A DNA stretch of 64,000 bases from Haloactinopolyspora alba (GCF_003014555.1 NZ_PYGE01000001.1:62001-126000); one strand, 5' to 3'; positions 33,584-51,620 are shown, counted from the first letter of the stretch. A program made the numbers and translations. Notes: generated from the letters alone by a model not told the origin.

Positions 33584-33600
33584 ATACCAGCAACGATAGT
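33584..33600 (+). repeat. att-like direct repeat, copy B
   Basis: ATACCAGCAACGATAGT, the most diverged copy at its first base. Fifty bases on, a conserved segment CGTTCCACAAACCGTTCCAC holds two GTTCCAC direct repeats. It ends the CBASS/DUF5677 interval. Confidence 0.65.
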
Positions 33601-34294: not shown

Positions 34295-34769
34295 CTCCGT
34301 CTGGGGGCGCCGCGCCGCACAGTGAAGTGCCCGCGATCACGGCTCCGAACGAACCTGGGCTCCTGGAATGGCCTTCAAGAACGGGGACCAGGTCGACCGG
34401 CACTGTGAGCATCATGGTGCCGATCATGGTCCCGGTCCGCCTGCGCACCTGAGACGCCACACGCCGTGTCACAATCTGCTGCACGGAACTGGCCAGCCGC
34501 GCGAGGCGACATGGCGAGGCGCATGGCCGATGAAGCGTTCCGCATCGAGCAGGACCGTGGCCGGTACTCACCCCATGTTCGGCTTGAAGGATCACGTGAG
34601 GGGGCCACGGGCTTGTCCAACGACGTCCGTGCCGCCGGGAACCGTCGCCGGGCTGGACATCACCGCCGATGCCACTTGTCTGACGCTGTTCGCGACGGTG
34701 CGGCGCGCTGACGAGCCGGGGTGATCCCCGCAGTCGGCTGCGTGTTCGTCGCCGACGCAGCCTCGGTCG
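34295..34769. other. Gap with no convincing gene
   Basis: The stretch carries an 81-codon open frame (34466-34711, plus strand) with a helical start (MARRMADEAFRIEQDRGR) that resembles nothing I know and has no clear ribosome site. The minus strand shows traces similar to the sequence upstream of toxin T1 (GTGTCACA, GGCGTCTCAGG). It is probably remnant DNA. Confidence 0.4.
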
Positions 34770-35066
34770 TCAGTCGAGGCCTTCGACGATGCGGAAGTCG
34801 CGCTCGAAGCCGTCGGGGAGTTCGGCCAGCGCCTCCTGGTAGGCCGCGCTCGCGCGTGCGGCGACCGCCTGCTCGAAGCTGTCGAACTCGATCAGGACGA
34901 CGCGCTCGGCGATTCCGGCTTCGTGTGCGTCGACCCGGCTGCCGATGCTCGCGAGCACCCGCCCGCCCGCGGCCGCGACGGCTAGACCTGCCAGTTCGTT
35001 GTAGACATCAAGCCTCTCGGGGTCCTCGATGGTGGGGTAGACGCTGACCCAGTAGCCCTTGGGCAT
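34770..35066 (-). CDS. DUF1330 protein
   Basis: A 98-residue dimeric ferredoxin-fold protein: MPKGYWVSVYPTIEDPERLD, GGRVLASIGSRVDAHEAGIA, ERVVLIEFDSFEQAVAAR and AAYQEAL are typical of DUF1330. GGAGG lies 7 bases before the ATG. It follows the MFS gene by 33 bases on the same strand and is probably the last gene of the MarR-MFS operon. Biochemical role of the family is unknown. Confidence 0.88.
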   Translation of the reverse strand: MPKGYWVSVYPTIEDPERLDVYNELAGLAVAAAGGRVLASIGSRVDAHEAGIAERVVLIEFDSFEQAVAARASAAYQEALAELPDGFERDFRIVEGLD

Positions 35067-35099
35067 GGAACCTCCAGTGTTGGAATGAGTGCATCTGAC

Positions 35100-36530: not shown

Positions 36531-36542
36531 CGGTCGGACTCC

Positions 36543-36986
36543 TCATCGGGCGTGGCTTTCGAGCTCCGCCAGATGCAGCAGCGCCGGAAGGGCTGCTGCC
36601 AAGGCCTCGACCTCGTCCCCGGTGAGTTCGTCGATCAACCGCGCGTACGCGTCGACGCCCGCCTGGCGGCGCGTCCGGACGTACGACGCGCCGGCCTCGG
36701 TCAGGCACACCAGCGTGACCCGCTTGTCGGACGGATCGCCCTTCCGCTCGACCAGCCCGGATTCCTCCATCACCCGGACCAGGACGGTCATCGCGGGCTG
36801 CGTGACGCCCTCGGCCACCGCCAGATCGGTGATCCGTCGCGGGCCGGTCTTGTCCAGGGCGGCCAAGGTGGCGGCGGACGTCAGGCTCATGTCGCGGGGA
36901 AGGCGTCTCACGGCCCTGGTGGCCAGACCGTAGAGGGCTGACCCGATGGCATCGGAAGCGGCGTGCGTGGCGTCTCGGCGACTCAC
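36543..36986 (-). CDS. MarR-family transcriptional regulator
   Basis: A 147-residue MarR protein with the winged HTH (RITDLAVAEGVTQPAMTVLV) and wing (GLVERKGDPSDKRVTLVCLT). Start is GTG 36986. It heads the MFS-DUF1330 operon and is likely its autorepressor, released by the pump's substrate. An inverted repeat, GCATA/TATGC (36994-36998 and 37019-37023), spans the AT-rich promoter just upstream. Confidence 0.9.
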   Translation of the reverse strand: MSRRDATHAASDAIGSALYGLATRAVRRLPRDMSLTSAATLAALDKTGPRRITDLAVAEGVTQPAMTVLVRVMEESGLVERKGDPSDKRVTLVCLTEAGASYVRTRRQAGVDAYARLIDELTGDEVEALAAALPALLHLAELESHAR

Positions 36987-36993
36987 GCCTGAA

Positions 36994-37023
36994 GCATAGC
37001 AGTCTTATATGAATCCTTTATGC
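36994..37023 (-). promoter_or_regulatory. MarR promoter/operator
   Basis: An AT-rich stretch unusual for this DNA (minus strand CATATAAGAC and TTCATA) sits 8-37 bases upstream of the GTG start and is bounded by GCATA/TATGC inverted arms. It is the likely promoter with an overlapping MarR site. Confidence 0.5.
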
Positions 37024-37313
37024 ATCCCGGGATCAGGGTTCGTCGATACCCTGACAGCGGACCGTGCCCACCGGGCCGGTCAAGTTCGAAGACCCGACAT
37101 GCGCCCGACCGAGCCCAGGCAGGAACCGGCCGACGCGGGTGGTGTAGACGGCGAACGCCGTGCCGTGGACGCGGCGCAGGTACGGGTCCACGACCACCTG
37201 GACCTGATGCTTTCGGACCACGCGCCCGGCGAGTAGCCAAGTGGCGCGATCTCCGGTCATGTGTGACCGTCGCGTGACGCGTCCCAGCGGACGGTCAGGC
37301 GGTGTGCGGGAAG

Positions 37314-37475
37314 ACCGATGAACGGCAGCACATGCTTCTTCAGATAGCCCCGGTACGTCCACTCCGTACTTGGCTCCAGCTTGTTCTCCCGCAGGTGCCG
37401 CTGAAGCAGCTGATCCACGGCCGAGTTCGTTCGTGGATGCCGCCGCTCGTACACCTCTGCGAGAACACGCGCGTG
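37314..37475 (-). pseudogene. Tyrosine recombinase N-terminal fragment (second copy)
   Basis: The minus strand encodes RVLAEVYERRHPRTNSAVDQ, LLQRHLRENKLEPSTEWTYR and GYLKKHVLPFIG, closely matching the fragment at 23250-23555, then diverges (LPAHRLTVRW). The catalytic domain is gone. It lies 260 bases from the tRNA-Lys-like remnant and att-like copy C, the normal neighbourhood for an integrase gene and its attachment site. Confidence 0.7.
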
Positions 37476-37738
37476 CGGACCCGCTCGGCCCCAGCGTCCG
37501 CCTGGGAGCCCAGCGGGCACGGTCTTACGGAAGTTGAAGCGCTTCGTCGACTCGAGCGACGCCCGCGTACCCGGTCTCGCGAGAGGCGCCAGACGGCAAC
37601 TCCTCGAGATGCCCCTACAGTTTCGTCGGACGACGTTCCGCCTCCGGCATGGACCCGTCGAAGCGACAGGGTGTTCCACGGACCGTTCCACGCCGAAGAA
37701 CCAATGCTCACCGTGAGCTGCCGCCGCCCTGGTCAGGA

Positions 37739-37790
37739 GGGTGGACCCCCGGGGGATCGAACCCCGAACCCGCGGATTAAAAGGCCGCGT
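37739..37790 (-). other. tRNA-Lys(TTT)-like 3' half (attachment-site remnant)
   Basis: On the minus strand: CCTTTTAATCCGCG (anticodon loop CTTTTAA), a variable region and the T-arm GGGGTTCGATCCCCC, then GGGGTCCACC resembling the acceptor 3' strand. The bases 5' of the anticodon arm are not a D-arm, so only the 3' half of the tRNA is present. Integrases commonly use this part of a tRNA gene as attB, so this is likely an attL/attR scar. It lies 20 bases before att-like copy C. Confidence 0.65.
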
Positions 37791-37810
37791 GACGGCACCT
37801 CATACAGTCA

Positions 37811-37825
37811 CTACCAGCAACAACG
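37811..37825 (+). repeat. att-like direct repeat, copy C
   Basis: CTACCAGCAACAACG, identical to copies A and D over 15 bases. Preceded by GGCACCTCATACAGTCA and the tRNA-Lys-like half; followed by GTGTCAC direct repeats (37850-37900) and CCCCGTTTCGCGTCACGAAC, counterpart of the segment seen after copies A and E. Confidence 0.75.
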
Positions 37826-37975
37826 CTTACCCAGTCGACCCCTTGAATCGTGTCACACCACTCTGTTCGACCCCGTTTCGCGTCACGAACCGTGTCACGC
37901 CGGCCGGTTCAACGGCTCACCGCGGCGCCAGCGCTGCGAGCGACAGGACAGGTGGAACATCCACCGCCGTCCCGA

Positions 37976-38425
37976 TCAGGGCGACGAGTTGGCGCGGGCG
38001 GGATGCCAGCCGGGGAGGTTCTCCGGGTCGCGGGGGTAGATCTTGTGATCCTTCAGCATCAGCGCGTCGTCGGCGTCGCCCCCGGAGTCCGGGTCGTCGT
38101 CGTCGACCATGCCGCCGAGCGGCGGGGTGTCGTAGTCGAAGTCCGCCGTGATCTTGCCTGTGTCGTCCACGGTGAACGTGGCGTTGTACCAGGTGCCCTT
38201 CCCCGGCTCGTACATCGCCTTGCGCAACTCGGTGACCGTTCGGACTCCGGCCCCAGCCATGACCACGTGGGGCTCGCTACCGTCAGGCATCTGGACGTCT
38301 AAGCCGACATCGGTCAGGTTCCCGGCCGCGGTGACGTCCAGGGTGAGTATCTTCCAGCCCTCGGGGGCGGCATCTACCATCGCCTGTCCGATGGCGTTCA
38401 GAAGAGACGGGTCGGGGATGCTCAC
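37976..38425 (-). CDS. YezG-like immunity protein (copy I3)
   Basis: A 149-residue protein of the same family as the immunity gene at 29071: MSIPDPSLLNAIGQAMVDAA start, GTWYNATFTVDDTGKITADF centre and DALMLKDHKIYPRDPENLPG tail. It overlaps the end of the nuclease toxin gene (38422) by ATGA, so it is the cognate immunity protein. It differs more from I1 than I5 does, consistent with its own toxin partner. Confidence 0.8.
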   Translation of the reverse strand: MSIPDPSLLNAIGQAMVDAAPEGWKILTLDVTAAGNLTDVGLDVQMPDGSEPHVVMAGAGVRTVTELRKAMYEPGKGTWYNATFTVDDTGKITADFDYDTPPLGGMVDDDDPDSGGDADDALMLKDHKIYPRDPENLPGWHPARANSSP

Positions 38426-39231
38426 GGCTCGATCTCCTCAGTTGGGTCGTTGTCGAACGGCACGGTACGCGGTTTCTGGCCAGCGATCTCATAACTGACG
38501 ACGATCGAGATCGGTCGGCGCGCATCAGTGTCATATTCCAGCTCGATCTCCAGGTCGACGGTCTTGCCTTGTTCCACGGCCCTGCGCCACCGGCGCTCCA
38601 TGGCCGCATATTCTTCGCGGTTGACCTTGCGCGTCATCGGCACCAGGTTCAGCTGGTCGCCAAGTCCTCCCAGCACTCTCGCGATGAGATGGCCGGCGTC
38701 GTCGCCGGGGAGCTTGCCCTTCAGGGTGTGCTGTGCATAGTCGTTGCGCTCGCCGGGTTCGCCAGCTGTCAGGGTCGCCTCTGCGCGGACAACACGGCCC
38801 AACTCATCAGTGGTGTACACGAACGCGTCGTCCACCACGATGACGCTGTTCGGCGGCGGGCTGCGCCGCACTCCGGCGTCTTTACGATCAGTTCCGGACA
38901 CACGCAGGAGCACCTGTTCGGCACTCCCGGACAGCTCAGACGGATCCGCGCCTGCTGGACGACTCAGGCCCTCGAGTTCACCAATGACATCGGTCAATGC
39001 CGCGCCGACCTCGTCCCCCAGCCGACGCACGTCACTCCCCATGTGCCGCTCGGCCTCGTCCAGATCAGCAAGCGCATCATCGGCGTGTGGGCCAGCCTCA
39101 GCGACCAAGCGGCGGATGTTCTCCATGTCGCCGCGGACCACGTCGAGAAGACCATCGACTTCACGCGGCGCCGTCTCGTCCCGGACCTGCTCCAACCCCT
39201 CAGCACCATCCCTGATGGGTCGATCGCCCAC
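38422..39231 (-). CDS. Nuclease toxin, DNA/RNA non-specific endonuclease fold (copy T3)
   Basis: A 269-residue homologue of the toxin at 28253: helical N-terminal part (DGAEGLEQVRDETAPREVDG, LLDVVRGDMENIRRLVAEAG) and C-terminal nuclease (HTLKGKLPGDDAGHLIARVL, GGLGDQLNLVPMTRKVNREE). D-x-G-H-L-I-A is intact. GTG 39231 aligns with the start of T1; the frame runs open further upstream to 39399. A variable linker (VVDDAFVYTTDELGRVVRAE) separates the parts. Without a visible secretion signal, it may act inside the cell or leave through an unknown route. Confidence 0.78.
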   Translation of the reverse strand: MGDRPIRDGAEGLEQVRDETAPREVDGLLDVVRGDMENIRRLVAEAGPHADDALADLDEAERHMGSDVRRLGDEVGAALTDVIGELEGLSRPAGADPSELSGSAEQVLLRVSGTDRKDAGVRRSPPPNSVIVVDDAFVYTTDELGRVVRAEATLTAGEPGERNDYAQHTLKGKLPGDDAGHLIARVLGGLGDQLNLVPMTRKVNREEYAAMERRWRRAVEQGKTVDLEIELEYDTDARRPISIVVSYEIAGQKPRTVPFDNDPTEEIEP

Positions 39232-39417
39232 GCAACCACCCGCTCTCTGCACTTCGCAGTCAAGACAGGCTCTCATGGCGCTTGAATCGTCCGCGACGTA
39301 TAGCCGGTCTCCAGACCAGAGAGGACCCTGGGCTGGAGCATACGAGGCGACGACGACATTGCGACACGTCCACTCGCCACTTGGGCGAACCGAAATCACC
39401 GCAGCATGGGCCTACCG

Positions 39418-39863
39418 TTACGGCGCGCTGGTCTCGTCGTGGACGGGGTGCCAGGTGGGGACGAGTCCGGGGCTGCCGGGATACATGCGGTGGTCCTCGA
39501 GCAGGAGCTCGGCGTCGGCGTCTCCCTCACTGTCCGGGTCGGTCTCGTCGATGACACCGCCGAACGGTTGCGTGTCGTGTCGAACTCGACAGTGACCTGA
39601 CCCTGGTCGTCGACCGTGATACGGGCGTCGTACCAGGTGCCCTTGCCGTCCTGGAACATGTCCGCGCGCAACTGCCCACACAGCCGCCCGGTGCCGCTCT
39701 CCAGTCGCACTTTCCCGTCGACCATCGTCACGACCAACGCGGTCTCGACCGTGTCCGCCAGTGCGGAGACCTCCAGGTACAGCCGCCGCCACCCCGTCGG
39801 AGCGGAGCACAGCATCGCCTGACCGATAGCGTGCAGCGTGTCCTGCTGGTTCGGGATACTCAT
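39418..39863 (-). pseudogene. YezG-like immunity gene with one-base deletion (copy I4)
   Basis: From ATG 39863 the frame reads MSIPNQQDTLHAIGQAMLCS, then EVSALADTVETALVVTMVDG and LRADMFQDGKGTWYDARITV, DDQGQVTVEFD. Compared with the copy at 33732, one T is missing in the TAC codon near 39580, and the frame shifts. The proper ending (FGGVIDETDPDSEGDADAEL, LLEDHRMYPGSPGL) continues in the next frame to a stop at 39418. No toxin gene adjoins it upstream, so it is an orphan that has begun to decay. Confidence 0.75.
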
Positions 39864-39962
39864 CGATCGTCCTCGTCCCGCGGCGTGTTCATGATCGTCA
39901 TCGACTTGGTCTCGGTGGCGGTCTCGTAGGCCCCCTGAAGAACGACGGCGCCACACACAGCC

Positions 39963-39977
39963 CTACCAGCAACAACG
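39963..39977 (+). repeat. att-like direct repeat, copy D
   Basis: CTACCAGCAACAACG, identical to copies A and C. No tRNA remnant precedes it. A related GCCAGCAACGACGGT lies 100 bases on (40062-40076), and GTGTCAC/GTGTTAC-type motifs lie between. Confidence 0.7.
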
Positions 39978-40082
39978 TCCACGCGCCGACATCTGAGGAC
40001 TTGTCACACCGCTCCTGCTCGCTCCGTCGCGCGTACGGACCGTGTTACGTGCGACCAGGGCGCCAGCAACGACGGTCATTGC

Positions 40083-40099
40083 GTAGTAGTTTGTAGTAG
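40083..40099. promoter_or_regulatory. Direct repeat in toxin-antitoxin promoter
   Basis: GTAGTAG occurs twice with a 3-base gap (40083-40089, 40093-40099), 11 bases before the GTG start. Ribbon-helix-helix antitoxins bind short repeated sites like this, so autoregulation is likely. Confidence 0.45.
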
Positions 40100-40109
40100 A
40101 CTCGTCTCG

Positions 40110-40421
40110 GTGGAGAACACACCGGACTGGAGCATACGAGGCGACTACATTGCGACCCGTTCCACTCGCCACCCAGGCGACACCAACATCGACCCAGCAT
40201 GGGCCGACCAGGCATTCACCGACACGCTCCGGGTGGTGTTCGACCCCGACTACGCCAGCAAGACCGGACGCAGCACCCGAACCATCGGCTACTCGCCGAC
40301 CGCCGGGTTCATCATCACCGTGATCACCGTCGTCGAGGACGACCACCTGTGGGGCGTCAACGCCTGGCGATCCAACACGAAAGACACCGCCGCATACGAA
40401 CACGACGAAAGGAGCCACTGA
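40110..40421 (+). CDS. Putative BrnT-like toxin
   Basis: A 103-residue protein with the plan of small type II toxins of the BrnT/RelE-like class: DYIATRSTRHPGDTNIDPAW, LRVVFDPDYASKTGRSTRTI, GYSPTAGFIITVITV and WGVNAWRSN. The R-S-x-R-x-I-G followed by hydrophobic strands recalls BrnT, but I did not identify it with certainty. The TGA shares one base with the ATG of the RHH gene (40421), the expected toxin-antitoxin coupling. A decayed copy is at 45781-45890. Confidence 0.6.
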   Translation: MENTPDWSIRGDYIATRSTRHPGDTNIDPAWADQAFTDTLRVVFDPDYASKTGRSTRTIGYSPTAGFIITVITVVEDDHLWGVNAWRSNTKDTAAYEHDERSH

Positions 40422-40726
40422 TGAGCAGGCACATCGTTGACATCGAGGCCGAGGCGTCCGAGGCCAGCCGGGACATGGACATCCCCGCCGGCTCCAAGCC
40501 GACCCGGCCCGGCCGGACGACCGTGCTATCGGTGCGGCTCGGACAGGACGAAGCCGACGCGCTTACCGAACTCGCCGCCACCCGCAGCGTCCCCGTCTCC
40601 ACACTGGCCCGCTCACTCATCGTCGAAGCACTGCAGACCGGCGACCAACAGCCAGAGACCGTGCACGACGAAGTCGTCCGAGCCCTACGCGAAACACTAC
40701 GATCCGACTTCCTCGCCGCAAGCTGA
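40421..40726 (+). CDS. Ribbon-helix-helix antitoxin
   Basis: A 101-residue protein. The RHH core is RTTVLSVRLGQDEADALTEL followed by RSVPVSTLARSLIVEAL (about residues 38-75); the Glu/Ser-rich N-terminus and the C-terminal helix likely contact the toxin. ATG 40421 has AGGAG 6 bases upstream. It should neutralise the upstream toxin and repress the operon. Confidence 0.75.
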   Translation: MSRHIVDIEAEASEASRDMDIPAGSKPTRPGRTTVLSVRLGQDEADALTELAATRSVPVSTLARSLIVEALQTGDQQPETVHDEVVRALRETLRSDFLAAS

Positions 40727-40761
40727 CACCAAGTAGACCTACGCCCCCGCAACACCTAGAT

Positions 40762-40783
40762 CAAGTGCCGTCACCGGCACTTG
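40762..40783 (+). terminator. Hairpin after toxin-antitoxin operon
   Basis: A perfect 9-base stem, CAAGTGCCG/CGGCACTTG, with a TCAC loop, 36 bases after the antitoxin stop and just before the long direct repeat begins at 40796. Confidence 0.6.
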
Positions 40784-40841
40784 CAAGATCGACCAGGCGC
40801 CGCCGCGTGAAGCTGCCCAACACGCCATCCGGAGGTAGCCA

Positions 40842-41288
40842 ATGAGTATCCCTGATCCCAGCAAGCTCAACGCTGTCGGCCAGGCGATGGTCGTCGCCGC
40901 ACCGGACGGGTGGCGATTCCTCAAACTCGAGGTGATGGCCGCCGGCGAGATGACCGACACCGGCTTGGAGATCGAAACGCAAGACGGCAGTATCGACATC
41001 GATGCCGTGCTGGAACTCGACGGCCTGGACGCCGTCGAAGTGCTACGCGCCGCCATGTACGAACAGGGCAAGGGCACCTGGTACCTCGCCACCATCACCA
41101 TCGACGAGAACGGCCAGATCAGAGCTGACTTCGACTACGAGAACCCGCCATTCGGCGGCATCCACGACAAGACACCAGGCAGCGGCCACGCCGATTCAGA
41201 TCTCCTCCTCGAGGACCACAAGAAGTTTCTGCGCGACCAGGAACTACTACCCGAATGGCACCCCGCCCGGCGAGCAGCCCGGCCGTAG
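40842..41288 (+). CDS. Orphan YezG-like immunity protein (copy I5)
   Basis: A 148-residue protein nearly identical to I1 at 29071-29517 (differences such as SIDIDAV for SIDTDAV and ELRADMYEPG replaced by VLRAAMYEQG). About 46 bases of the matching toxin end precede it and nothing more, so it has no toxin of its own. It may protect against the T1 toxin of relatives, a known role for orphan immunity genes, or back up I1. Confidence 0.8.
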   Translation: MSIPDPSKLNAVGQAMVVAAPDGWRFLKLEVMAAGEMTDTGLEIETQDGSIDIDAVLELDGLDAVEVLRAAMYEQGKGTWYLATITIDENGQIRADFDYENPPFGGIHDKTPGSGHADSDLLLEDHKKFLRDQELLPEWHPARRAARP

Positions 41289-41400
41289 ACCGGCCCGAGC
41301 AAGGACCGAAATCACCGGGCGGGCCGAGGGCGGTGTTACAAGACCACCAAGTCCAACTCGGGGCGGGCTCACGAGGACCTGGGAGACGGGAACCGGACGC

Positions 41401-41462
41401 ACCGTCAGATCGAACCCCGACCTACTGATCCGTAGGGAGCAGGAAAACGCCTCATGACGCCG
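41401..41462 (-). other. Degenerate tRNA 3'-half before att-like repeat E
   Basis: Duplicate of the remnant at 29640-29692: on the minus strand CCTACGGATCAGTAGG and GGGGTTCGATC, then CCTCAT and the repeat. It is part of the long direct repeat. Confidence 0.45.
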
Positions 41463-41479
41463 CTACCAGCAACGATAGT
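41463..41479 (+). repeat. att-like direct repeat, copy E
   Basis: CTACCAGCAACGATAGT, identical over 17 bases to copy F at 45972. Both share GATAGT where A, C and D have AACG. Copies E and F bound the kinase-KptA gene interval. Confidence 0.75.
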
Positions 41480-41630
41480 TACAACGCCCGCACCACGCTG
41501 CTGAAACCACCCTCGTTGACTCCATTTCGCACCACGAACCGCACCACAGGAACCGGCGCGCGTCCGGCCGTCGAGTGTGACGGCCGGCGACGGGGTGGCG
41601 ACGCCTATCGAGTATCGACGAGATGGTTTC

Positions 41631-41810
41631 CTACACCGCCTCGCCGTCACGCCGCGCCTGGATGAGCCCGTAGAAGGTCAGCATGGCCTTGCGCTCGTCC
41701 TCGCGCATCCACTTCTGCTGCCAGAGAACACGCTCGACCGCGTCGTCAAAGATGATCTTTGCTGGCTTCAGCGCGACCGGACTTAGGGTCCTTGCTGCCG
41801 GGCCGGTTTC
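41631..41810 (-). pseudogene. C-terminal remnant of an unidentified protein
   Basis: The minus strand reads KPAKIIFDDAVERVLWQQKW and MREDERKAMLTFYGLIQARR before a stop at 41631. The residue pattern looks genuinely coding, with charged helices and no stops, but no start or ribosome site could be fixed and the frame fades above about 41810. Probably the tail of a deleted gene. Not recognised. Confidence 0.35.
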
Positions 41811-41897
41811 GGCATTCCCCCGGCCGACCCTCAGATTTCAAGCATCGCTCCCGAATCCAGTCCCGACACACAGGCCGGATCACGATCTACGCAGTGA

Positions 41898-44888
41898 CTA
41901 ATGGAACGGCACCGGTGGGAGTACGCTCCAGATCATCGTCAGCGGCTCGACCTGTATGTCGTGAACCTTGATCTCGGGAGAGACCAGTGTATTCCCGCCG
42001 CGACTGATCAATGTCGTCGTGCGCTCACCGTCAGTGGACAGGAGCAGCGGGTAACCGTGCCGAAAACCAGACAAGAGCGCCTCCTTTGCAGAGCGTGAGA
42101 GATGGACGAACGTCCGCGATAATGGCCTTAGTCCCTCTCCCTTTTCGATGATCGAGCTGGCGGCATCAATTGTGGTGGCGTGAAACGCCTTCGTAGCATA
42201 CTCAGCTAGACCTTCGCGAACGCCCGCGCCTTCCACGCGACGCGAGTGCCCGTATCGAGCCCTGACCAGACCGTCACGGTACTCGAATCGTGGGTCTGAG
42301 AGAGTCGAGGCCACAATGGCAATCTCTTGCTCGGAAACCCGATGCCCGATCGCAGACGTCAGTTCCTGGATCGACGCCCAGCCGTCTGGATCAAGACTGA
42401 CTACGGGCCCGTGTCTCAGGTGATACGCCATCGACTTACTGATTCTGCGACGACGATGCTCATCGATGACGAGCTCGCTCGACGGGAGCTCCGACAGGCC
42501 CCGGTTTCGCCTCCATGCAGCAAGCACACCAATGACCCAGTCCCGGAGTTCGGCAGCAGCAGCATCGACTGCCAGCCCGTCGAGTGTTGCCTGAGCATGG
42601 GATTGATCCGATGGAGTCGCCTGATCCCACGTCAATCGTCTCAGAGCTCGTGCTGCCACACTGGCCTGATAGGCAATCCAAGCTCTTTGCGGATCGACTT
42701 TGAGGTGCCCCAGCAAACTCGCGACGTACTCATCGAAGACACGGCGTCTCCCACCCCAATCGCCCGGGTCGAAAACCGGAGCGTCATCAGTAATCTGAGC
42801 GAGCTCGTAACCCAATGGACGTGAGCCAGTGGCCTCAAGGTCGATGGCGAATAGCTTGCCATCATCGGCTAGCACCCAGTTGTCCAAGTGTGCGTCCCGA
42901 CGTCGAACAGGCGGGACGTCCGCTACCATCACCCACCAGCCGTCAAATGTCTGAAGCGGTTCGCCGATTCCGATGGCACGGAGCCACCGGTACACCTCCT
43001 TTTCCTTCAACTCCTTCCGGACACCGTCTGAAGTCGCGGCCTCGACACCGTTCAAGAATGCCAGGAAGCCAGCCACACGGGCGAGTAAATGCAGTCGCTT
43101 CTCCGATGACGCGCCGCCAACAACACTAGCGACGGGTAATCCCGGCACGAACCGCCGAACACTTCGCTTCATGCCGTCCTTCAAGTCAGAAGCCACGAAG
43201 TGTTGCGTAACGCCGTATACACCGCCCTTTGCTGCTGCCTCGATCGAAACGTCCAGGTGCGCTAGTCGCTCGGACTCACGCTTGAGAGCGATCGAAGTAA
43301 CCGTTTTGATGACGAAGTTCTGGCTGACGAGCCCATAGTAGTCGCCCACTGTCGTGACTTCGCTTCGACCACCGAGCGGGCTCTCTGCTAGGTCCGGACT
43401 GGAAAGCGCCCGCTCGGCCGCAAGCGCGAGCAGGCTCCTCCAATCACCGGTCTCCAGGAATCGAGCAATTTCGCCAGCCTCTCCTGAGAATGGCCCGAGG
43501 ACCGAAATAGGGCCGTTAGACTCAACGTCCTGAGCAAGCAACAGGAGCGGGGACGCCGACGACGCATTGCGCGTCGCCATGTCGATCAGAGTTTTCAGAT
43601 CGCCCGACCGAGCACCGTCTCGGCCGTCCAAAGATGCGAGCAGCAGGGAGTCCCGGATCCCGAGAAGCACCGATCTTTCATCTGAAAGCCCAGGGCGGAC
43701 TACCGTCCCCCTCCGTAGCTCCACCACTCGTCTGAGTCGCTCAGGGGTTTCGTCCCCTTGGTCGGCGGCCAGCAGGTCGGCGCACACACCTTGGGCGAGC
43801 ATGTCACCGGAGTTCGCTCGGTCAATTATCGACTCAGTTAGTTCGCCCGCAAGCATTGCGAGCAGCCGCGGAGCCTTTCCGCTGCGCGCACCGAATGGCA
43901 GGCGGAGTCCGATCGTGGCACCGTCGTCGAGGATGGCCGGGTCATCTTGCGCCACATTGATCAACATCTCCAGCATCAGGGCACGGACCTCGTCTGAACC
44001 GAGGTGGCGCTCGAACGCAAGTCGGACGCACTCGGCAGCTTTCCTCAGTCCCGCGCTTCTCGCACTTCTTCCGGCGAACGATGCAAGGCGAAGGTACGCA
44101 TCGCATGCCGCAAGTTGAGCTGCTGGATTCTCGTCGTATTCTAAGTCCGATAGGTAGCTCTTGGCTCTCTTCATTAACGCCAACAGCTTTGGCGGATCAG
44201 GCTGAAGATCAAACCTGAGAACACTCGCTTCAAGCAGGTACGGCACGGCGGTCGGGGGGTCGTTACCCTGTTTGAGAGATCGTTCCAGCGCGGCGATGGC
44301 CTCAGTGACGTCGCTGCTGTCGACACTGTCAAACCTGGACATCAACACAGTGGCCACTCCAAGTCGTCCCGTAAACTCCCGCCGTCTTGATTCTGAAGTC
44401 ATCTCCTCGTGTCCGACGACGTCACGCAGAAAGCCGCGTGCGACGCGAAGAGATTGGACGAAAAGGACGGGCCTGCGCCAATTAACGTCTCGCGCATAGT
44501 TATAAACGGACAGAGCAGCTTGCTGACGGGCAATATGAAGCGTCTTTAGGTAGGTCATTCCTCGAGGGAGTTGCCGGGCAACTGCACCGACGCCAACGGC
44601 TAGCTTGGCTTCAAAGAGGAGCGCTTCTGATACCGAGACTTCTTCGGCATTCAAAGCTGCCTGCCAGTCACTTAACAACTCTGACGCCTTCGGCTTAGGG
44701 GCCAGCAAGGAGTTGAAACGCACTTCCCCTTCCTCTGGTTTCACGGTCGGAGCCCGATCTGACTTTGTGGGAGTGATCGCTAGACTCCTGAGGGTCGACA
44801 TGACTTCCACCTCGTCGTCCGGACCGAGTACAACCCGCGACGATAACTGCCTTCGGGCGACATCCGCGGGGCTGACGTTGAGATTCAC
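41898..44888 (-). CDS. Large fusion protein: helical repeats, APH-like kinase domain and KptA/Tpt1-like RNA 2'-phosphotransferase domain
   Basis: A 996-residue protein. Residues ~50-550 are helical, TPR/HEAT-like (EALLFEAKLAVGVGAVARQL, AACDAYLRLASFAGRSARSA). Residues ~555-790 look like an aminoglycoside-phosphotransferase/kinase fold: SQNFVIKTVTSIALKRESER with a candidate Lys, RRRDAHLDNWVLADDGKLFA (catalytic H-x-D-N near 664-667) and IDLEATGSRPLGYELAQI (metal-binding Asp-Leu-Glu). Residues ~810-985 match KptA/Tpt1: ISKSMAYHLRHGPVVSLDPD (R-H pair), DGLVRARYGHS, YATKAFHATT and GLRPLSRTFVHLSRSAKEAL. KptA uses NAD to remove a 2'-phosphate from RNA. GTG 44888 has AAGGA 6 bases upstream. The gene is less GC-rich than its neighbours and stands alone between att-like copies E and F. 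Confidence 0.75.
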   Translation of the reverse strand: MNLNVSPADVARRQLSSRVVLGPDDEVEVMSTLRSLAITPTKSDRAPTVKPEEGEVRFNSLLAPKPKASELLSDWQAALNAEEVSVSEALLFEAKLAVGVGAVARQLPRGMTYLKTLHIARQQAALSVYNYARDVNWRRPVLFVQSLRVARGFLRDVVGHEEMTSESRRREFTGRLGVATVLMSRFDSVDSSDVTEAIAALERSLKQGNDPPTAVPYLLEASVLRFDLQPDPPKLLALMKRAKSYLSDLEYDENPAAQLAACDAYLRLASFAGRSARSAGLRKAAECVRLAFERHLGSDEVRALMLEMLINVAQDDPAILDDGATIGLRLPFGARSGKAPRLLAMLAGELTESIIDRANSGDMLAQGVCADLLAADQGDETPERLRRVVELRRGTVVRPGLSDERSVLLGIRDSLLLASLDGRDGARSGDLKTLIDMATRNASSASPLLLLAQDVESNGPISVLGPFSGEAGEIARFLETGDWRSLLALAAERALSSPDLAESPLGGRSEVTTVGDYYGLVSQNFVIKTVTSIALKRESERLAHLDVSIEAAAKGGVYGVTQHFVASDLKDGMKRSVRRFVPGLPVASVVGGASSEKRLHLLARVAGFLAFLNGVEAATSDGVRKELKEKEVYRWLRAIGIGEPLQTFDGWWVMVADVPPVRRRDAHLDNWVLADDGKLFAIDLEATGSRPLGYELAQITDDAPVFDPGDWGGRRRVFDEYVASLLGHLKVDPQRAWIAYQASVAARALRRLTWDQATPSDQSHAQATLDGLAVDAAAAELRDWVIGVLAAWRRNRGLSELPSSELVIDEHRRRRISKSMAYHLRHGPVVSLDPDGWASIQELTSAIGHRVSEQEIAIVASTLSDPRFEYRDGLVRARYGHSRRVEGAGVREGLAEYATKAFHATTIDAASSIIEKGEGLRPLSRTFVHLSRSAKEALLSGFRHGYPLLLSTDGERTTTLISRGGNTLVSPEIKVHDIQVEPLTMIWSVLPPVPFH

Positions 44889-45086
44889 GCCAATTCCTTG
44901 TGGGTCGCACGAAAGGCCACGCCGCACTGCCAACAGCACTGACTCTCGTGGTCGCTACCTGCCGACGATGTGGCTGAACGAGCCGCCGTTAATAGGCCCA
45001 CCACAAGTCGACGGTGTGGTGTACGCTCGCCAAGCATCGACTTCACCTGCCATTCGCTGGTGACATTCCGGCCACTGTAAAACGCA

Positions 45087-45114
45087 GGTGGTCGCTCATC
45101 CTTGGGCGACCACC
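45087..45114. terminator. Strong hairpin upstream of the fusion gene
   Basis: A perfect 9-base stem GGTGGTCGC/GCGACCACC with a 10-base loop, 200 bases upstream of the start at 44888. It may insulate the fusion gene from transcription coming from the transposase side. Confidence 0.45.
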
Positions 45115-45513
45115 GACGTTGTGCACGGTGCAAGACCAGATTATGGCATGAATTTGCGCCACGTGGCGTCGCTGGCCATCATCCGACGTTGACACACGTT
45201 CCACGCGCCGCTGAGACGATACTCGCTCTTCATAGTTGAGCATACCGGCGCCGCCTTCGGGGCGCACCGTGGTGCGCGAAGATTCGGGTGCTTGGGCGGG
45301 TTGCGACTGGTTGGTCGCGGTTGGATGCTGAGTACGTCCGTCGTGGTTGACCCCGGTCACCCTCTGGTGTCTGTGAGCCTGTAGTTGAGCATGGTGGCGG
45401 AGGACTTCCACGGGAACCGTGGATTGGTGCCGTGAGCCCGAGCGTCAGACTTCCTCTTTCTCCCTGTCCTCCCCACGGCGGGCGCCTGGAAGGTCCACAG
45501 TCGGGAAGGAGCC
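45115..45513. other. Intergenic stretch with GTTGAGCAT direct repeat
   Basis: No gene is visible. TAGTTGAGCAT occurs at about 45231-45244 and again at 45383-45393, both followed by GC-rich sequence, possibly remnants of insertion-sequence ends bounding the IS110 fragment to the right. Confidence 0.4.
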
Positions 45514-45750
45514 GTGGGAATGGAAGTGGTACATGCCCGGTGTGTCGGGCTGGACATCTCGAAGTAGGACGCCAAGGTCTGCGTCCGAGTCGCCGGGGCG
45601 GGTCGGCGCAAGGCTGTCGAGACAGTCACGACGTGGTCGTCGATGACGTCACGGATCTTGGCACTGCGTGAGCACCTGGCCGCCGAGCGGGTCGCCCGGG
45701 CGCTGCTGGAGACCGGCGGCTTCAGACCCCGACTACACCCTCGATTGTGA
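45514..45750 (+). pseudogene. IS110-family transposase, N-terminal remnant with in-frame stop
   Basis: From GTG 45514 (AAGGAG just upstream) the frame reads EVVHARCVGLDISK, TAG at codon 18, then DAKVCVRVAGAGRRKAVETV, TTWSSMTSRILALREHLAAE, RVARALLETGGF, before running out at 45750. GLDxSKxxxxV is the N-terminal signature of IS110 (DEDD) transposases, which end GLDVSKKDAKVCVR in actinobacteria. The stop replaces a Lys codon (AAG to TAG), and most of the protein is deleted. Confidence 0.75.
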
Positions 45751-45780
45751 TGAGCCACGATACTGTCATCGCCCGACGTG

Positions 45781-45890
45781 AGCCGGCCAAGCGCTCACCG
45801 AGGCGCTCAGTGTGGTTGTCGATCCCGACGACGCAGCAAGGCCGGACACAGCATCTGAACCATGGGCTACTCGCTGACAGTCGGACCGTC
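45781..45890 (+). pseudogene. Decayed BrnT-like toxin fragment
   Basis: The sequence matches the middle of the BrnT-like gene at 40190-40310 (GAGGCGCTCAGTGTGGTTGT, GATCCCGACGACGCAGCAAG, CATGGGCTACTCGCTGACAG) with several indels and stops. No antitoxin remnant is visible. It shows that the toxin-antitoxin cassette occurred twice, each copy near an att-like repeat. Confidence 0.6.
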
Positions 45891-45971
45891 GAAGTGTCCA
45901 CAGCACAATCGTAGGCATCCCGGAGTCAAACGCCTGCGAACCAGAGCCGCATGGGGCGCCTGGTCTGGCCG

Positions 45972-45988
45972 CTACCAGCAACGATAGT
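45972..45988 (+). repeat. att-like direct repeat, copy F
   Basis: CTACCAGCAACGATAGT, identical to copy E. It lies at the junction between the remnants to its left and the MADS-like operon to its right, so the whole operon lies outside the last repeat. Confidence 0.72.
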
Positions 45989-46175: not shown

Positions 46176-49100
46176 TCACGACGATGCCATCTTCGTCTCG
46201 CCGCCGTGCCGGGTCACCCGAGGCCGCAGAGACACACGGACGGCGTTTCGGGTGAAGGCATGGTCGTTGGCCTTGCCCGCCCAGGTGTACGCCTCCCCCG
46301 GCTGCAGATGTGCAAGGTTCTCCGGCCGCAGCCCGTTGAGCGCGGAGTTCGCCTTCTGGATGTGCTTGAGCCACGCGGGCGAAGTCATCTTGTGTAGGAC
46401 CACGACGTCGGAGAGTTCGATGAGCGAGACCGGGACCGAGGGCGGATCCTGGCTGGCGACCACGATGCTCATCCCCTTGTGCCGCATCTCTCGGACGGAC
46501 TCGACGAGAACGTCGACCAGATCGAGGCTATCGATGTACTTGTGGGCCTCGTCGAAGACAACGAGTTTGTTAAAGTGGCTGCCGTCGATCTTGGCCTCGG
46601 CGAAGAGCTGCATCAGCACAACGAAAAGACCGAGGCTCTCGTCCTTCTCGATGAACTCGTCGCGCAGATCGACGATGACGAGGCGTCCGGGCCGGACGTA
46701 GTCGGAGATCCGCACGGAGTCGTCGATGTAATTGGAGGCCAGATCGAGGCGCTGACGTGCGAGGTCCTTAAGATTGTCGGCCATTCCGGAGGATTCGACC
46801 CCCTGGCGCACAGTGGTCAGGCTGAGGTTGTTTCGGTTGGCCTTGAGGACCTGCATGAGCTGACGGATGTACATCGCCTGGTTGCCCACCGCGCCGAGCA
46901 GGAATCGCCAGTGGGTAGCCTGCAGTTCAGACGAGGCGAACAGGAGTGGCTGAACGTCGAGGTCAGGGAACTCCTCACGGCGCTCCTCGACCTGGTCCTG
47001 GGGTGCCAGGAGTAGGACGTCCTCCAACGCGGCCGGTTCGGCACCATAGCGGTTACGCAGCAGGTCGATCTGGCTCTCGACGTCGTTGGGATACTTCATT
47101 GAGGTGAACTCTGGTGCGTAGTCCTGGGTGCGGCTGTAGTGGAAGACGACGGTAGCCAGTGGGTTCGGCAGGTCATTCACACCCGGCGCGGGCAGCGTCG
47201 CACCTTCGATGATCGAACCGAGGGTGTAGCTCTTGCCGCCACCCTGGACACCGAAAAGGCTGATGGTGTGACTCTCGTTTAGATCCAGACCGATCTTCCG
47301 GCCTCCGGCGGCCTCACCCAAGATCGCCCGCTGCGGCGTCGTGTACGTGACACCAAGTAGTACCGGTGGGGTGATGGCCCGCTGCGAAGAGGCTGAAGCG
47401 TGCGACCACACGTCCTGGAGCGCGGGGGGATCCTCAACCCCAACATCCGTCGTGGGTGCAACTGACGTCTCCCTATCCTCGCTCGACCGGTCCACTGGCG
47501 GTGCCGAATCGAAGGCTTCGGGCACAGCCGGCTTCGGGCTGAGGTCGACAGGCGGCGGCACCGGTGGTGATTGCCAGTCGGGTTCGGTCTCCTGCGGCTT
47601 GTCCGCCAACGCGTCGAGCGTGGGGGCCCTGAAGGCAGCGTCCTCGCGCCGGGTCCTGGTCAGGGCCGGCACGGTGGTAGCGAACGGCTCGGTGGCATCG
47701 CGGGGCCGGTCGGGTTCGGTCGGCACGTCGGCGAGGAGTTCGTCGATCTCTTCTCGCCCGATGTGGTGGAACTCCACTCCATCAATGACCTCGGGCCGGC
47801 TGCTCTCTCCCGCAAGCTCGAAGATTAGCCCGATCCGTTCGAAAGAGAGGATGAACCCGTCGTCGAGCGTCTCCAACAGTCGGCGAGCATGCGTGCTCAC
47901 CGAACGCCCGACCATCTTGTAGCGTTCGGAACGCTCCAGGTAGAACCGCAACAGCGCGGCGAACTCAACGTTCTTCACCGCCCGGTCGACCCGGTCAGGG
48001 TCTGACAGGTTCGGAGCGAACTGGGCGGCCAGCACTGTCTCAGAGGTCTCGACCTGCTCGGTGATCGACCGCCGCAGCGCCTCGTACTCGGTGACGTTGC
48101 GGATCTTGGAGTATGCCTTGACCTCCACCAGACGGCAGGTGATAGTCCGTGCATTGGCGTCGAAGGAGAACAGGGCGAGGTCGGTACGTCGAAGCGACTT
48201 CTCCGCCCCTGAGCGGCGTCGTGCCTCGACGTAGAGATCCTGGTGAGCGTCGAGGGGCACCACGATCTGGTCGTCGAGCACCCGCTGGCCCTCAAGGTAA
48301 AGTCGCGCCAGGGCGAGGCCAAGCACCTCAGAGCGCTGATTGCGAGCCGCGGAGGAGAGCTTGAAGGCGAGGCTGCCCGAGAGCAGTCGTAACTGCTCAA
48401 AGAAGGTCTGCAGGTGCCGGTCGTCGACCACAAGACCATGGTCGCTGAGCACCGGCGTCAACAAGCCACGGAGCTCCTCGACCTTGCGGGAGCTGACCAG
48501 CACTTGACGGCCGAGACCGACTCGGCCGGCGACATAGTCGATGACGAAGTCGCTGCGGCTGCCACTGTCGGCGGCGCGGTCGAAATACTCCAGGCCGAGG
48601 GTGCGGTCGATGATGACCACCCAGTCGCTCACGTCGTGGGCCTGGTGAAGTAGGGAGCGCTGCTGGCCGTCGAGGTTGAGCGTGGTCGTGGGCACATGCC
48701 CGGTCGCGGTCCCGTCGGTGGCTACGCTGGCCGCCGCGCCGGCAAGGGTCTGGGGCAGTTTGGCGAGCACTTCGCCGAGGCCGCCGCCGGTGGCACCAGG
48801 ACGGGCGCAGACGGGGGTCTTGCGCCAGGTGACGCTGGTTCCGTCTTCGTTGGCGTGGAAGGCCGTAGTTGCCTGCTGGATGAGCCCGTACGCCGGCGGG
48901 TGTGCAACTTCTTGCAGCGGCCCCGTCTCGTGTTGCTCGCCGGAGAAGGCGTCGACAAAGATCGTCAGGTGCGCTTCAAACTCGCCCGGGCGGTCCTCGA
49001 ACTCGTCCATAGACCGGACCGAGTAGGCCAGCTTTGGCACGCCGCTGCCCTGTCGCGCGCCGAATGCCTCGGCCTCATCATTGTTGAAACGGCCGTCGGA

Positions 49101-51620
49101 ACGGGTCAGGTCGGCCAGGGCTTCACCAATGCCCGGCATGGCGGTGTTGGCGGTGCACAGCCGGAGATCGTAGGTCAGCTCCCTGGTCGTCGAGCGCCGC
49201 TGGAGTTCGAGGAGCATCTCCACGATCAGGGCCGCGTCTCCGGGATTGATCACGTTGACGACCAGGGTGCGGACATAACCGTGCTGGCGCACATACCGCT
49301 CCACTCGGTCGGCCAACACGGCAGCAGCCTGGTTGCCACCAGCGGCGCGGGGCGCGTCCGGTACGCCGAGCGCGGCAGACAATTTGTTAAGCAATCCAAC
49401 AGCGTCGTCGGTACGCGGGTGCACCATCGCAGTCCAGAAGGGGGTCAGATTGGCGACCGCGGCGAGCAGGTGGTGGTTGTCCTGTCGCGGCACTGCGAAT
49501 GGGAATCCGAGGGAGTCGAGCCGGTCGAAGAAACTCGCTGCCGCGTCGGCGGCGGCCTCCCTGGTGTGCAGGGCAAGCTCCTTGCGCCAGGCTGCGCCGA
49601 CACTGCTCCACCCTGCGAACCACGCCAACCGAAGTGGGTGGGTTGGACCGGGTAGCAGGACGCGGTGGATGCCACCGAGCGCGTCGAGGTAGCGGACCGC
49701 CACCGCATCGATCTGCTGTAGACCGGCGAGTGCCCGCAGGGCGGCTCCGCGCTCGCTCTTGGCGACCTCGCCTAGATGGGCGGACAGCGCGGCGATCATC
49801 CGCTGGTAGCTGGCCGAATAGGCAACGGTCTCAGCCGAGATAGCGGAGAGATCGGTCGTCTCGATGACACCGATCGGCTCCATGTCTGACGCACTGGCAC
49901 CTGCGATCGCCTCGAACAATGTATCGCGGACGCGGATGAACTCGCCGAAGACCTGCTCTGCCGCAGGGCCGAGCGAGTCGACCCACGGGGTCTCGTCCCG
50001 GACCGGGGCGGAGGGCGCGCCCTCCTGGCTGATCGCCAGCTGCCACATGCCGAGCTCACGCGGGCTGATCAAGGTGTCGCGCTCGATCTGGGTCAGCAGC
50101 CGGGAGAGCCTGACCTCGACGCCGCCACCACCGGCTACGTGCACGTTCGCACTGGCGTACGCCGAGGTGCGCGACCCGTTGACCCAGGAGACCTCGCCAG
50201 GAGTGAGCTCCTTGCCGGGGCGTCCGTCGACGAGGCGGCCGAAGGCCAGCCGCTGGATCGCGTGGGTAAGGCTCTCGTAACGCTGTGCCCGAGTCTCGGG
50301 CGGCTCCTCGCTCTCGTCGGCGTTGACGACATAAAAGAGCTCGCTCATGCCGGAGGAAGGGCCCGTGACGATCCGCCGGTCGGTCTCTGCGATCGGTGTA
50401 ACGATCAGGCGGTGCCAGCCCTCGTCGAGCTGGGCCTTGCGCAGGTTGCGGATCGTGCCCTTGTAGTTACTCTTCGGACGTACTCCGGCGGCCACGTTTA
50501 CCGCCTTGCCGGTGGGCTCACCATCCTCGGCGACCAGCTCGACACGGAGCTTGAGCAGTCCGTCAGCGGTGGTCAGGGCCGGGCCAATGCCGAAGGTTGC
50601 AGCGATGTCCTTGGCACCTGTCGGACCGGCAATCAGGTACGGCTGTCCGGCGAGCGTCTCCAAGACCGGGTAGTTCTTGAGATGCTCCGCGTCGTCCCCG
50701 ACGACTGGCAGGCCGACAATGTGGACGTCGATCTCGACCTGCACCTCGCGCTCATTCGGCGCGGGCCACTTGTCGAAGGTCAGGCCGCGGTTGTCGCGGT
50801 CGGTGATGATCCGCCGGGTCCAGATGCCGCGGTCCTCTAGGCCGATCTTCCCAACGAAGCGGCCAAGCCGGGCGATGAAGCCGGGGTCGGCGAGTCCGAG
50901 GGAGAGCACCCGCTGCCGCTCGGCAAGGTCACTGCGGCTGAGGTCGTCCACATGGACGCGATTGCGACCCACCCGCCCGGACACGTCATCGAGCGTCTTG
51001 AAGAGCGCCAGATCGGGAACCAGGCCGAAACAGAAGATCGCCGCTCCTGCGGCGTCGGGTTCGTAATCATTGGCAGCGATGGTAAGCAGGTAATGTACCC
51101 AGGCCTGGTCGGTGGCGCGGCCGTCCTTCTTCTGGGCGAGAGCGTGCTGCAGACGGTCGATGCCGTCGCGCAGCGAAGTCGGCACCCGGCTCATCAGCTC
51201 CTCGCGTAGCATGCCGTAGGCGTTGCCGACCTCGACTTCCTCGAAGGTGGCCACGCCGAAGGAGTCCTCGGCGCTCGCGCGGAGCCCCGGCGGCACGAAG
51301 GCCAGCAGTGGCCCGGAGGTTTCTTCGACAGGTCGGTTCCGCAGCTCGACGAGCTGGGTGCTGGTCACCAGCATGTCGTCGCCGCTGGCGACCTCCTCAT
51401 CATTCGCCAGCAGGCACACCACGGTCCCAGGCAAGGTGGCAGTACGCAACCGGTGAACCAGGCGGGAGCCGAGCTCGCCGTCGAGTTCGGTGACGCGCAT
51501 GCAGTGGCCCGCCTGCCGGTTGGAGAGCAGGGCGAGCAGGTGGGGGACGAGCACGTCCTCCAGGGCACTGCGCCGGTCGGCCATGGTGGGCTCGGTCAGC
51601 CCGACCGCGGTGGCAGCCAA
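46176..51620 (-). CDS. mad8: MADS-like HerA/FtsK-type ATPase (MAD8-like)
   Basis: An 1814-residue protein, the last gene of the operon. The long N-terminal ~1350 residues have mixed alpha/beta content and no motif I can name; a Pro/Ser-rich linker lies at about 1330-1420. The C-terminal ATPase has Walker A GVQGGGKSYT (near 1457) and Walker B LVVFDEAHKYI (near 1685), the layout of HerA-type DNA translocases. It resembles the large ATPase of methylation-associated defence systems and the DptH proteins of phosphorothioation-linked restriction. Start TTG 51620 is preferred because GAGGAG lies 6 bases upstream; it overlaps the preceding gene by 25 bases. Alternative ATG 51584 lacks a ribosome site. 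Confidence 0.75.
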   Translation of the reverse strand: MAATAVGLTEPTMADRRSALEDVLVPHLLALLSNRQAGHCMRVTELDGELGSRLVHRLRTATLPGTVVCLLANDEEVASGDDMLVTSTQLVELRNRPVEETSGPLLAFVPPGLRASAEDSFGVATFEEVEVGNAYGMLREELMSRVPTSLRDGIDRLQHALAQKKDGRATDQAWVHYLLTIAANDYEPDAAGAAIFCFGLVPDLALFKTLDDVSGRVGRNRVHVDDLSRSDLAERQRVLSLGLADPGFIARLGRFVGKIGLEDRGIWTRRIITDRDNRGLTFDKWPAPNEREVQVEIDVHIVGLPVVGDDAEHLKNYPVLETLAGQPYLIAGPTGAKDIAATFGIGPALTTADGLLKLRVELVAEDGEPTGKAVNVAAGVRPKSNYKGTIRNLRKAQLDEGWHRLIVTPIAETDRRIVTGPSSGMSELFYVVNADESEEPPETRAQRYESLTHAIQRLAFGRLVDGRPGKELTPGEVSWVNGSRTSAYASANVHVAGGGGVEVRLSRLLTQIERDTLISPRELGMWQLAISQEGAPSAPVRDETPWVDSLGPAAEQVFGEFIRVRDTLFEAIAGASASDMEPIGVIETTDLSAISAETVAYSASYQRMIAALSAHLGEVAKSERGAALRALAGLQQIDAVAVRYLDALGGIHRVLLPGPTHPLRLAWFAGWSSVGAAWRKELALHTREAAADAAASFFDRLDSLGFPFAVPRQDNHHLLAAVANLTPFWTAMVHPRTDDAVGLLNKLSAALGVPDAPRAAGGNQAAAVLADRVERYVRQHGYVRTLVVNVINPGDAALIVEMLLELQRRSTTRELTYDLRLCTANTAMPGIGEALADLTRSDGRFNNDEAEAFGARQGSGVPKLAYSVRSMDEFEDRPGEFEAHLTIFVDAFSGEQHETGPLQEVAHPPAYGLIQQATTAFHANEDGTSVTWRKTPVCARPGATGGGLGEVLAKLPQTLAGAAASVATDGTATGHVPTTTLNLDGQQRSLLHQAHDVSDWVVIIDRTLGLEYFDRAADSGSRSDFVIDYVAGRVGLGRQVLVSSRKVEELRGLLTPVLSDHGLVVDDRHLQTFFEQLRLLSGSLAFKLSSAARNQRSEVLGLALARLYLEGQRVLDDQIVVPLDAHQDLYVEARRRSGAEKSLRRTDLALFSFDANARTITCRLVEVKAYSKIRNVTEYEALRRSITEQVETSETVLAAQFAPNLSDPDRVDRAVKNVEFAALLRFYLERSERYKMVGRSVSTHARRLLETLDDGFILSFERIGLIFELAGESSRPEVIDGVEFHHIGREEIDELLADVPTEPDRPRDATEPFATTVPALTRTRREDAAFRAPTLDALADKPQETEPDWQSPPVPPPVDLSPKPAVPEAFDSAPPVDRSSEDRETSVAPTTDVGVEDPPALQDVWSHASASSQRAITPPVLLGVTYTTPQRAILGEAAGGRKIGLDLNESHTISLFGVQGGGKSYTLGSIIEGATLPAPGVNDLPNPLATVVFHYSRTQDYAPEFTSMKYPNDVESQIDLLRNRYGAEPAALEDVLLLAPQDQVEERREEFPDLDVQPLLFASSELQATHWRFLLGAVGNQAMYIRQLMQVLKANRNNLSLTTVRQGVESSGMADNLKDLARQRLDLASNYIDDSVRISDYVRPGRLVIVDLRDEFIEKDESLGLFVVLMQLFAEAKIDGSHFNKLVVFDEAHKYIDSLDLVDVLVESVREMRHKGMSIVVASQDPPSVPVSLIELSDVVVLHKMTSPAWLKHIQKANSALNGLRPENLAHLQPGEAYTWAGKANDHAFTRNAVRVSLRPRVTRHGGETKMASS

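Follow-up and report, generated by a model that had tools for sequence, protein, structure and literature searches.

Can a bacterial Tpt1/KptA domain obtain its phosphorylated substrate from a kinase on the same polypeptide? This question is raised by a single large gene of Haloactinopolyspora alba, located on a 64,000-nucleotide stretch of DNA (GCF_003014555.1, NZ_PYGE01000001.1:62001-126000; the whole stretch is termed the window in the following), whose product joins an N-terminal tetratricopeptide repeat (TPR)-like part to a kinase of the aminoglycoside phosphotransferase (APH) fold and a C-terminal Tpt1/KptA domain. The natural substrate of the widespread bacterial Tpt1/KptA enzymes is a stated long-standing puzzle, and one suggestion is that it arises when a kinase phosphorylates an internal 2'-OH of RNA (PMC6333775). 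In archaea, ArkI phosphorylates the 2'-OH of U47 of tRNA and KptA removes that phosphate (PMC9095486). In the protein studied here, all three parts are backed by confident structure predictions.

The open reading frame is intact on the minus strand, with a GTG start at 44888 and a stop codon ending at 41898. A longer frame, open up to 44939, would be possible; since the homologues begin near 44888 and not at 44939, the start was set at the former position. A preliminary description of the window had placed helical repeats, an APH-like kinase and a KptA/Tpt1-like domain in one protein at 41898-44888: this frame is real, with the correction that it is read from the minus strand and thus starts at 44888. 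The three-part architecture was confirmed by profile matches and by AlphaFold2 modelling on an 18-sequence family alignment, the whole-protein model reaching a mean predicted local distance difference test (pLDDT) of 87.6 and a predicted template modelling score (pTM) of 0.78. Comparison with solved APH and Tpt1 structures recovered both folds (Z up to 16.8 and 14.5, respectively).

The C-terminal part is with certainty a Tpt1/KptA domain. PF01885 matches the window protein with E=1.5e-18 (68 bits versus a curated cut-off of 26), and is found in 18 of 18 family members; each of the 20 carrier genomes gives a match exceeding the cut-off. Solved Tpt1 chains match the window protein at E about 1e-14. 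The model aligns with structures of TkoKptA (Z 14.5, root-mean-square deviation [rmsd] 7.0 over 169 residues; Z 14.4, rmsd 2.7 over 168), and other Tpt1 structures match as well (Z range 13-14.5). The key residues of CthTpt1, i.e., R18, H19, K66, R68, Y80, H101, T103, R121 and R139 (PMC6333775), map in order to R825, H826, D865, R867, Y879, H903, T905, R925 and R943. Among these, the Arg-His-Arg-Arg tetrad (R825, H826, R867, R925) is kept without exception by the 20 fused proteins compared; its first two members are the R-H pair already recognized in the preliminary description. The Arg of VRARYGHS, named there as the downstream Arg, is likewise invariant, but the residue spacing of CthTpt1 (PMC6333775) assigns the third tetrad Arg to R867 in the segment DPRFEY instead. 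In the lobe binding nicotinamide adenine dinucleotide (NAD), H903 and the caging R943 are present in 20 of 20 proteins and T905 in 16 (Ser in 3), while the middle Gly of the HGT motif is mostly replaced by Ala in the 20 aligned sequences.

Standalone Tpt1/KptA proteins (PF01885; CthTpt1, TkoKptA, ApeTpt1) share with the fused domain the fold, the tetrad, the NAD-contacting His/Thr and Arg as well as the SerLys and GHS motifs. In contrast to them, the fused form constitutes a separate clade, is always joined to the TPR-like part and the kinase, and lacks the Lys corresponding to Lys66 of CthTpt1: this position is Glu in 18 and Asp in 2 of the 20 fused proteins, whereas all 25 standalone actinobacterial Tpt1s compared have Lys. 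Lys66 touches the transferred phosphate and is not essential in RslTpt1 or SceTpt1; the K62A variant of RslTpt1 performs almost like the wild type at 1 mM NAD and less well at 0.1 mM (PMC6333775). Judged from this variant, activity is expected of the fused enzymes as well, although their affinity or substrate may be changed.

For the central part, the predicted fold is that of small-molecule kinases and not the eukaryotic-type fold of ArkI. Structural matches of the model at Z 12-16.8 comprise APH, corramycin and choline kinases, among them 3csv, a putative APH (Z 16.8, rmsd 4.1 over 288), and 8agy, corramycin phosphotransferase (Z 16.6, rmsd 4.0 over 288). The Lys, Asp-x4-Asn and Asp set is shared with this superfamily, which also includes glucosamine kinase; the differences are an identity of only about 10-15 %, a substrate-binding part not recognizable by sequence, and the TPR and Tpt1 domains on the two sides of the fused kinase. 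PF01636 (APH) is recognized in 2 of 18 family members (best E 4.4e-7) but not in the window protein, and a search of the kinase profile against PDB sequences yielded a single weak chain, 8agy, at E 0.4. K528, D665, N670 and D683 are invariant in the 18-sequence alignment and remain so after addition of a homologue devoid of Tpt1. N670 and D683 lie in the HLDN and IDLE motifs of the kinase-like module that had been proposed ahead of Tpt1, a proposal that the fold matches and the invariant set bear out. The spacing, Asp-x4-Asn with the next Asp 13 residues further, is the same as for D190, N195 and D208 of APH(3')-IIIa.

The N-terminal part, modelled alone with a pLDDT of 91 and a pTM of 0.88, is predicted to form a superhelix of antiparallel helix pairs, the best solved match being the TPR domain of LGN (Z 17.9, rmsd 7.7 over 308 residues). 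The helical repeats of the preliminary description are hence specified as TPR-like by predicted structure; no Pfam TPR match, i.e., no TPR sequence signature, was detected in this part of the 18 family members searched.

A six-frame genome search, a collection scan with kinase-only patterns and further searches revealed 21 other loci with the gene (L037-L053, G224, G214, G522, G1056), 20 of which, all but G1056, were covered by the examination of Tpt1. They range over two actinobacterial classes and one contig of a metagenome-assembled genome (MAG) labelled Chloroflexota, namely the 5.8-kb L048, labelled Thermobaculum; G522 is a fusion-carrying genome from the other actinobacterial class. Carriers include Promicromonospora, Demequina, Nocardioides, Curtobacterium, Microbacterium, Streptomyces, Actinoplanes, Micromonospora, Nocardiopsis, Frigoribacterium and Rathayibacter, among others. 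Overall, the fusion is rare and patchy: it was found in 2 of 396 genomes across the phylum, in 4 of 347 genomes of one order (including two marginal fragments) and in 5 of 250 of another (including three marginal fragments). Two copies (L047 and L033) are broken by frameshifts and represent decayed genes or sequencing errors. The kinase-pattern scan did not require Tpt1, which was nevertheless present in every full-length hit, and all full-length copies examined contain it, with the exception of L034. In trees, the fused Tpt1 domains are split from standalone ones in 98 % of bootstrap replicates; the copy of G522 has a long branch and an unsure place. The invariance of the catalytic residues of kinase and Tpt1 shows that selection acts on both activities.

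Where the phosphate could come from was approached by searching the 20 carrier genomes for further Tpt1 (PF01885, also in genome G034) and for T4-type RNA ligase. Ligases related to it in fungi produce junctions that carry a 2'-phosphate. In 15 of the 20 genomes there is no Tpt1 besides the fused one, and T4-type (T4 Rnl1/fungal type) RNA ligase is absent from 19 of them, other ligase families not having been searched; a kinase in cis would therefore be the economical source of phosphate. A close known counterpart, ArkI and KptA (PMC9095486), likewise pairs an RNA 2'-OH kinase with a phosphate eraser of the NAD+-using Tpt1/KptA type. Differences are that ArkI and KptA are two separate housekeeping proteins without TPR part and without defence context, and that ArkI is of the eukaryotic kinase type and carries HGQ and DFE motifs (PMC9095486), whereas the fused kinase has the APH fold with (R/K)DAHxxNW and DLE. 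The HGQ triplet and the DFE loop of ArkI (AQ578) are absent from the family, which displays (R/K)(R/K)DAH and (I/V)D(L/W)E instead.

Several features of the locus indicate mobility. Two identical att-like 19-mers at 41461 and 45970 (chance expectation 0.01) enclose the fusion and no other gene, as had been noted in the preliminary description together with the lower guanine-cytosine (GC) content, which amounts to 0.593 versus about 0.66 around the gene in the window. Across the family, the gene has a lower GC than its flanks in 18 of 19 loci, with differences reaching 0.19 (L052). Overall, six copies of the repeat motif (core CTACCAGCAAC; at 29.7, 33.6, 37.8, 40.0, 41.5 and 46.0 kb), all on the plus strand, divide the region from 29691 to 45988 into cassettes. 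In the family-member genome G210, the core CTACCAGCAA overlaps the 3' end of tRNA-Met (L067:1924-1934) and reappears 0.5 and 5.7 kb beyond it, an arrangement that fits attachment sites at a tRNA and makes the repeats candidate integrase sites. The repeat was absent from the same-genus genome searched, and no RNA family was found within 39-47 kb of the window. Among the loci examined, no neighbour gene recurs and flanking DNA is unconserved even between closest relatives; the gene is therefore regarded as a one-gene unit. A toxin-antitoxin pair or an operon was rejected on the same grounds.

The link of the fusion to defence is suggestive. The preliminary description had assigned the gene to an island of defence genes, and indeed the repeat-bounded cassette at 29.7-33.6 kb holds a pair (SMODS/AGS_C and SLATT_4) resembling a cyclic-oligonucleotide-based antiphage signalling system (CBASS), while an operon matching mad5-mad8 of the methylation-associated defence system (MADS), with an N6 methylase upstream, is located past the last repeat. 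By raw count, restriction-modification or defence genes occur near the fusion in 5 of about 20 loci, the window and four others: type I restriction, a mad8-like ATPase and AbiU at L037, McrBC and an AriA-like ATPase at L040, a type II restriction enzyme with C5 methylase at L050, and a Druantia/type II-like C5 methylase at L047. The copies of the window, L037 and L047 are 55-57 % identical and reside in three different defence neighbourhoods. Membership in MADS was considered and rejected, as the fusion matches no MADS model; both lie adjacent on the same strand and MADS possesses a kinase-containing protein of its own (mad6-like), but an att-like repeat lies between the fusion and the operon, and the fusion is also present at loci that lack MADS. 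No defence protein model of PADLOC-DB 2.0 matches the fusion at E<=0.01 and no account of a TPR-kinase-Tpt1 fusion was found in the open-licence literature, in agreement with the earlier remark that no characterized system is known to have this architecture.

Taken together, the gene may encode a sensor-gated, self-contained enzyme of mobile genetic conflict, probably anti-phage, in which kinase and Tpt1 act on a shared substrate, an interpretation that is put forward tentatively, as a serious possibility somewhat short of probable. The TPR part would sense an infection signal or a partner and control the enzymes, the kinase would phosphorylate a nucleic-acid hydroxyl, most simply the ribose 2'-OH of tRNA or other RNA, and the Tpt1 domain would next process this phosphate with NAD, uniting ArkI (writer) and KptA (eraser) in one chain. 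The outcome might be a switchable or reversible RNA 2'-phosphate mark or, once triggered, a cycle spending ATP and NAD+ that halts the cell, or ADP-ribosylated ends left behind. Unlikely in its full detail, yet not far-fetched, is a single-gene anti-phage system of new chemistry in which infection would trigger phosphorylation of RNA or DNA and the fused Tpt1 would spend NAD+ on that phosphate, the product being a stable phospho-ADP-ribosylated nucleic acid or an ATP/NAD-draining cycle releasing ADP-ribose cyclic phosphate.

A number of observations weigh against the shared-substrate defence interpretation. The APH fold mostly phosphorylates small molecules or peptides, no APH-fold kinase is known to phosphorylate RNA, and the family of ArkI is another one. 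As the phosphate-contacting Lys is acidic in all fused proteins, substrate or second-step chemistry may differ. L034 (L034:9977-13729) contains helical repeats and an intact kinase without Tpt1, and its host G034 is devoid of any Tpt1 genome-wide; kinase and Tpt1 activity can thus be separated. The neighbours of most streptomycete copies are ordinary genes. As to recurrence in defence islands, a check proposed at the outset, the fusion does recur in other genomes, frequently close to restriction and defence genes; about three quarters of the loci lack a recognized defence gene nearby. The earlier idea of a self-contained pathway adding and removing a phosphate is supported in part by the presence of both enzymes with their residues kept and by the Tpt1 and ligase inventories, and is countered by the small-molecule-kinase fold and the separability seen in L034.

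Some of the same observations would suit two effectors under one sensor without common substrate, the kinase inactivating a protein or small molecule, and ADP-ribosylation by the Tpt1 domain being directed at the phosphate ends of nucleic acid from phage or host, with the resulting ADP-ribose cap killing or blocking replication. The APH fold is appropriate for small-molecule substrates, the kinase stands alone in L034, Tpt1-like enzymes, including SCO3953 of S. coelicolor, can ADP-ribosylate 5'-phosphate ends of RNA and DNA (PMC11833690), and the acidic swap in 20 of 20 fused proteins could favour a halt at the ADP-ribosylated stage. Such a division of labour is nonetheless considered unlikely, though deserving of attention: the tetrad Arg residues for the second step are retained, RslTpt1 K62A completes the reaction at 1 mM NAD (PMC6333775), and the near-strict co-retention of both domains suggests joint work.

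RNA repair is a known theme of phage-host conflict (PMC9503650), and kinase and Tpt1 are two activities of the fungal/plant tRNA healing pathway; the fusion could accordingly restore 5'-phosphates and remove 2'-phosphates after sealing, protecting against anticodon nucleases. No ligase or end-healing gene recurs beside the fusion, however, the T4-type RNA ligase is missing in nearly all carriers (within the scope of the search given above), and known 5'-OH polynucleotide kinases are P-loop enzymes and not of the APH fold, which renders this explanation quite improbable. Also improbable is a function outside defence, as an accessory metabolic or regulatory enzyme spread horizontally among actinobacteria, e.g., for control of tRNA modification under stress or natural-product resistance. 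It would agree with the streptomycete loci L041, L042 and L053, which have ordinary neighbours and near-host GC, and with antibiotic kinases being among the closest folds of the kinase, but is at variance with MADS, CBASS, type I/II restriction-modification, McrBC and AbiU genes near several unrelated loci, with the three different defence neighbourhoods of three closely related copies, and with the patchy, low-GC, cassette-like mobility.

If the single-gene anti-phage system with new chemistry holds, this would be the first bacterial Tpt1 with a substrate made by its own polypeptide. The kinase-Tpt1 fusion turns the question of the bacterial Tpt1 substrate into a test on one purified protein. 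Should a role in defence be confirmed, phosphate-primed, NAD-consuming RNA modification would be added to the anti-phage mechanisms, and Tpt1 genes carried by some phages could be explained. Each of the domains has been described before, as has a pair of similar chemistry; the system could turn out to be categorically new should phosphate-primed NAD chemistry be shown to underlie defence.

Table 1 Features of the fusion gene and its borders (window positions)
Feature	Position	Strand	Basis or remark
Att-like direct repeat CGCTACCAGCAACGATAGT, downstream cassette border	41461..41479	+	identical 19-mer
Whole gene, TPR-like / APH-like kinase / Tpt1-KptA fusion	41898..44888	-	996 aa + stop
Tpt1/KptA domain, residues 809-982	41943..42464	-	PF01885, Tpt1 folds Z 13-14.5
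Tetrad R925	42114..42116	-	20/20 fused
NAD motif H903-A-T905 (HGT in standalone Tpt1)	42174..42182	-	alignment
D865 and tetrad R867	42288..42296	-	alignment, mapped from CthTpt1 (PMC6333775)
Tetrad R825-H826	42411..42416	-	20/20 fused, 25/25 standalone
APH/choline-kinase-fold kinase, residues ~497-806	42471..43400	-	fold matches, PF01636 in 2/18
Asp683, invariant metal-binding Asp of IDLE	42840..42842	-	alignment
Catalytic loop D665-A-H-L-D-N670, Asp and Asn invariant	42879..42896	-	alignment
Lys528, invariant beta-3 ATP lysine	43305..43307	-	alignment
TPR-like alpha superhelix, residues 20-496	43401..44831	-	model, LGN TPR match
Shine-Dalgarno-like AAGGA	44895..44899	-	6 nt upstream of GTG start
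Att-like direct repeat, upstream cassette border	45970..45988	+	identical 19-mer

No relative of the fusion was detected in the viral contigs searched, and phage and plasmid records yielded matches to the Tpt1 part only. Tpt1 domains are encoded by Listeria, Klebsiella/Serratia jumbo and Alcaligenes phages, where they possibly serve as counter-defence against RNA 2'-phosphorylation.

In the window, the CBASS-like pair (SLATT_4 effector, SMODS/AGS_C nucleotide cyclase) is located at 29970-32020 and the MADS-like operon at 46176-61138 on the minus strand, the latter comprising mad8, mad7, the mad6-like gene (kinase), the mad5 specificity protein and the N6 methylase. The mad8-like protein has 1814 residues with SspH-like similarity and far exceeds the 314-position model. 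At 37976-39399, a YezG-like immunity gene accompanies a DNA/RNA non-specific endonuclease toxin (Endonuclea_NS_2); several copies of the immunity-like gene are scattered, with paralogues at 29071, 39396 and 40842. Near two other fusion copies, genes for a CHAT-domain protein (L043:14253-17114) and an RHS toxin-like protein (L039:2150-7327) were identified.

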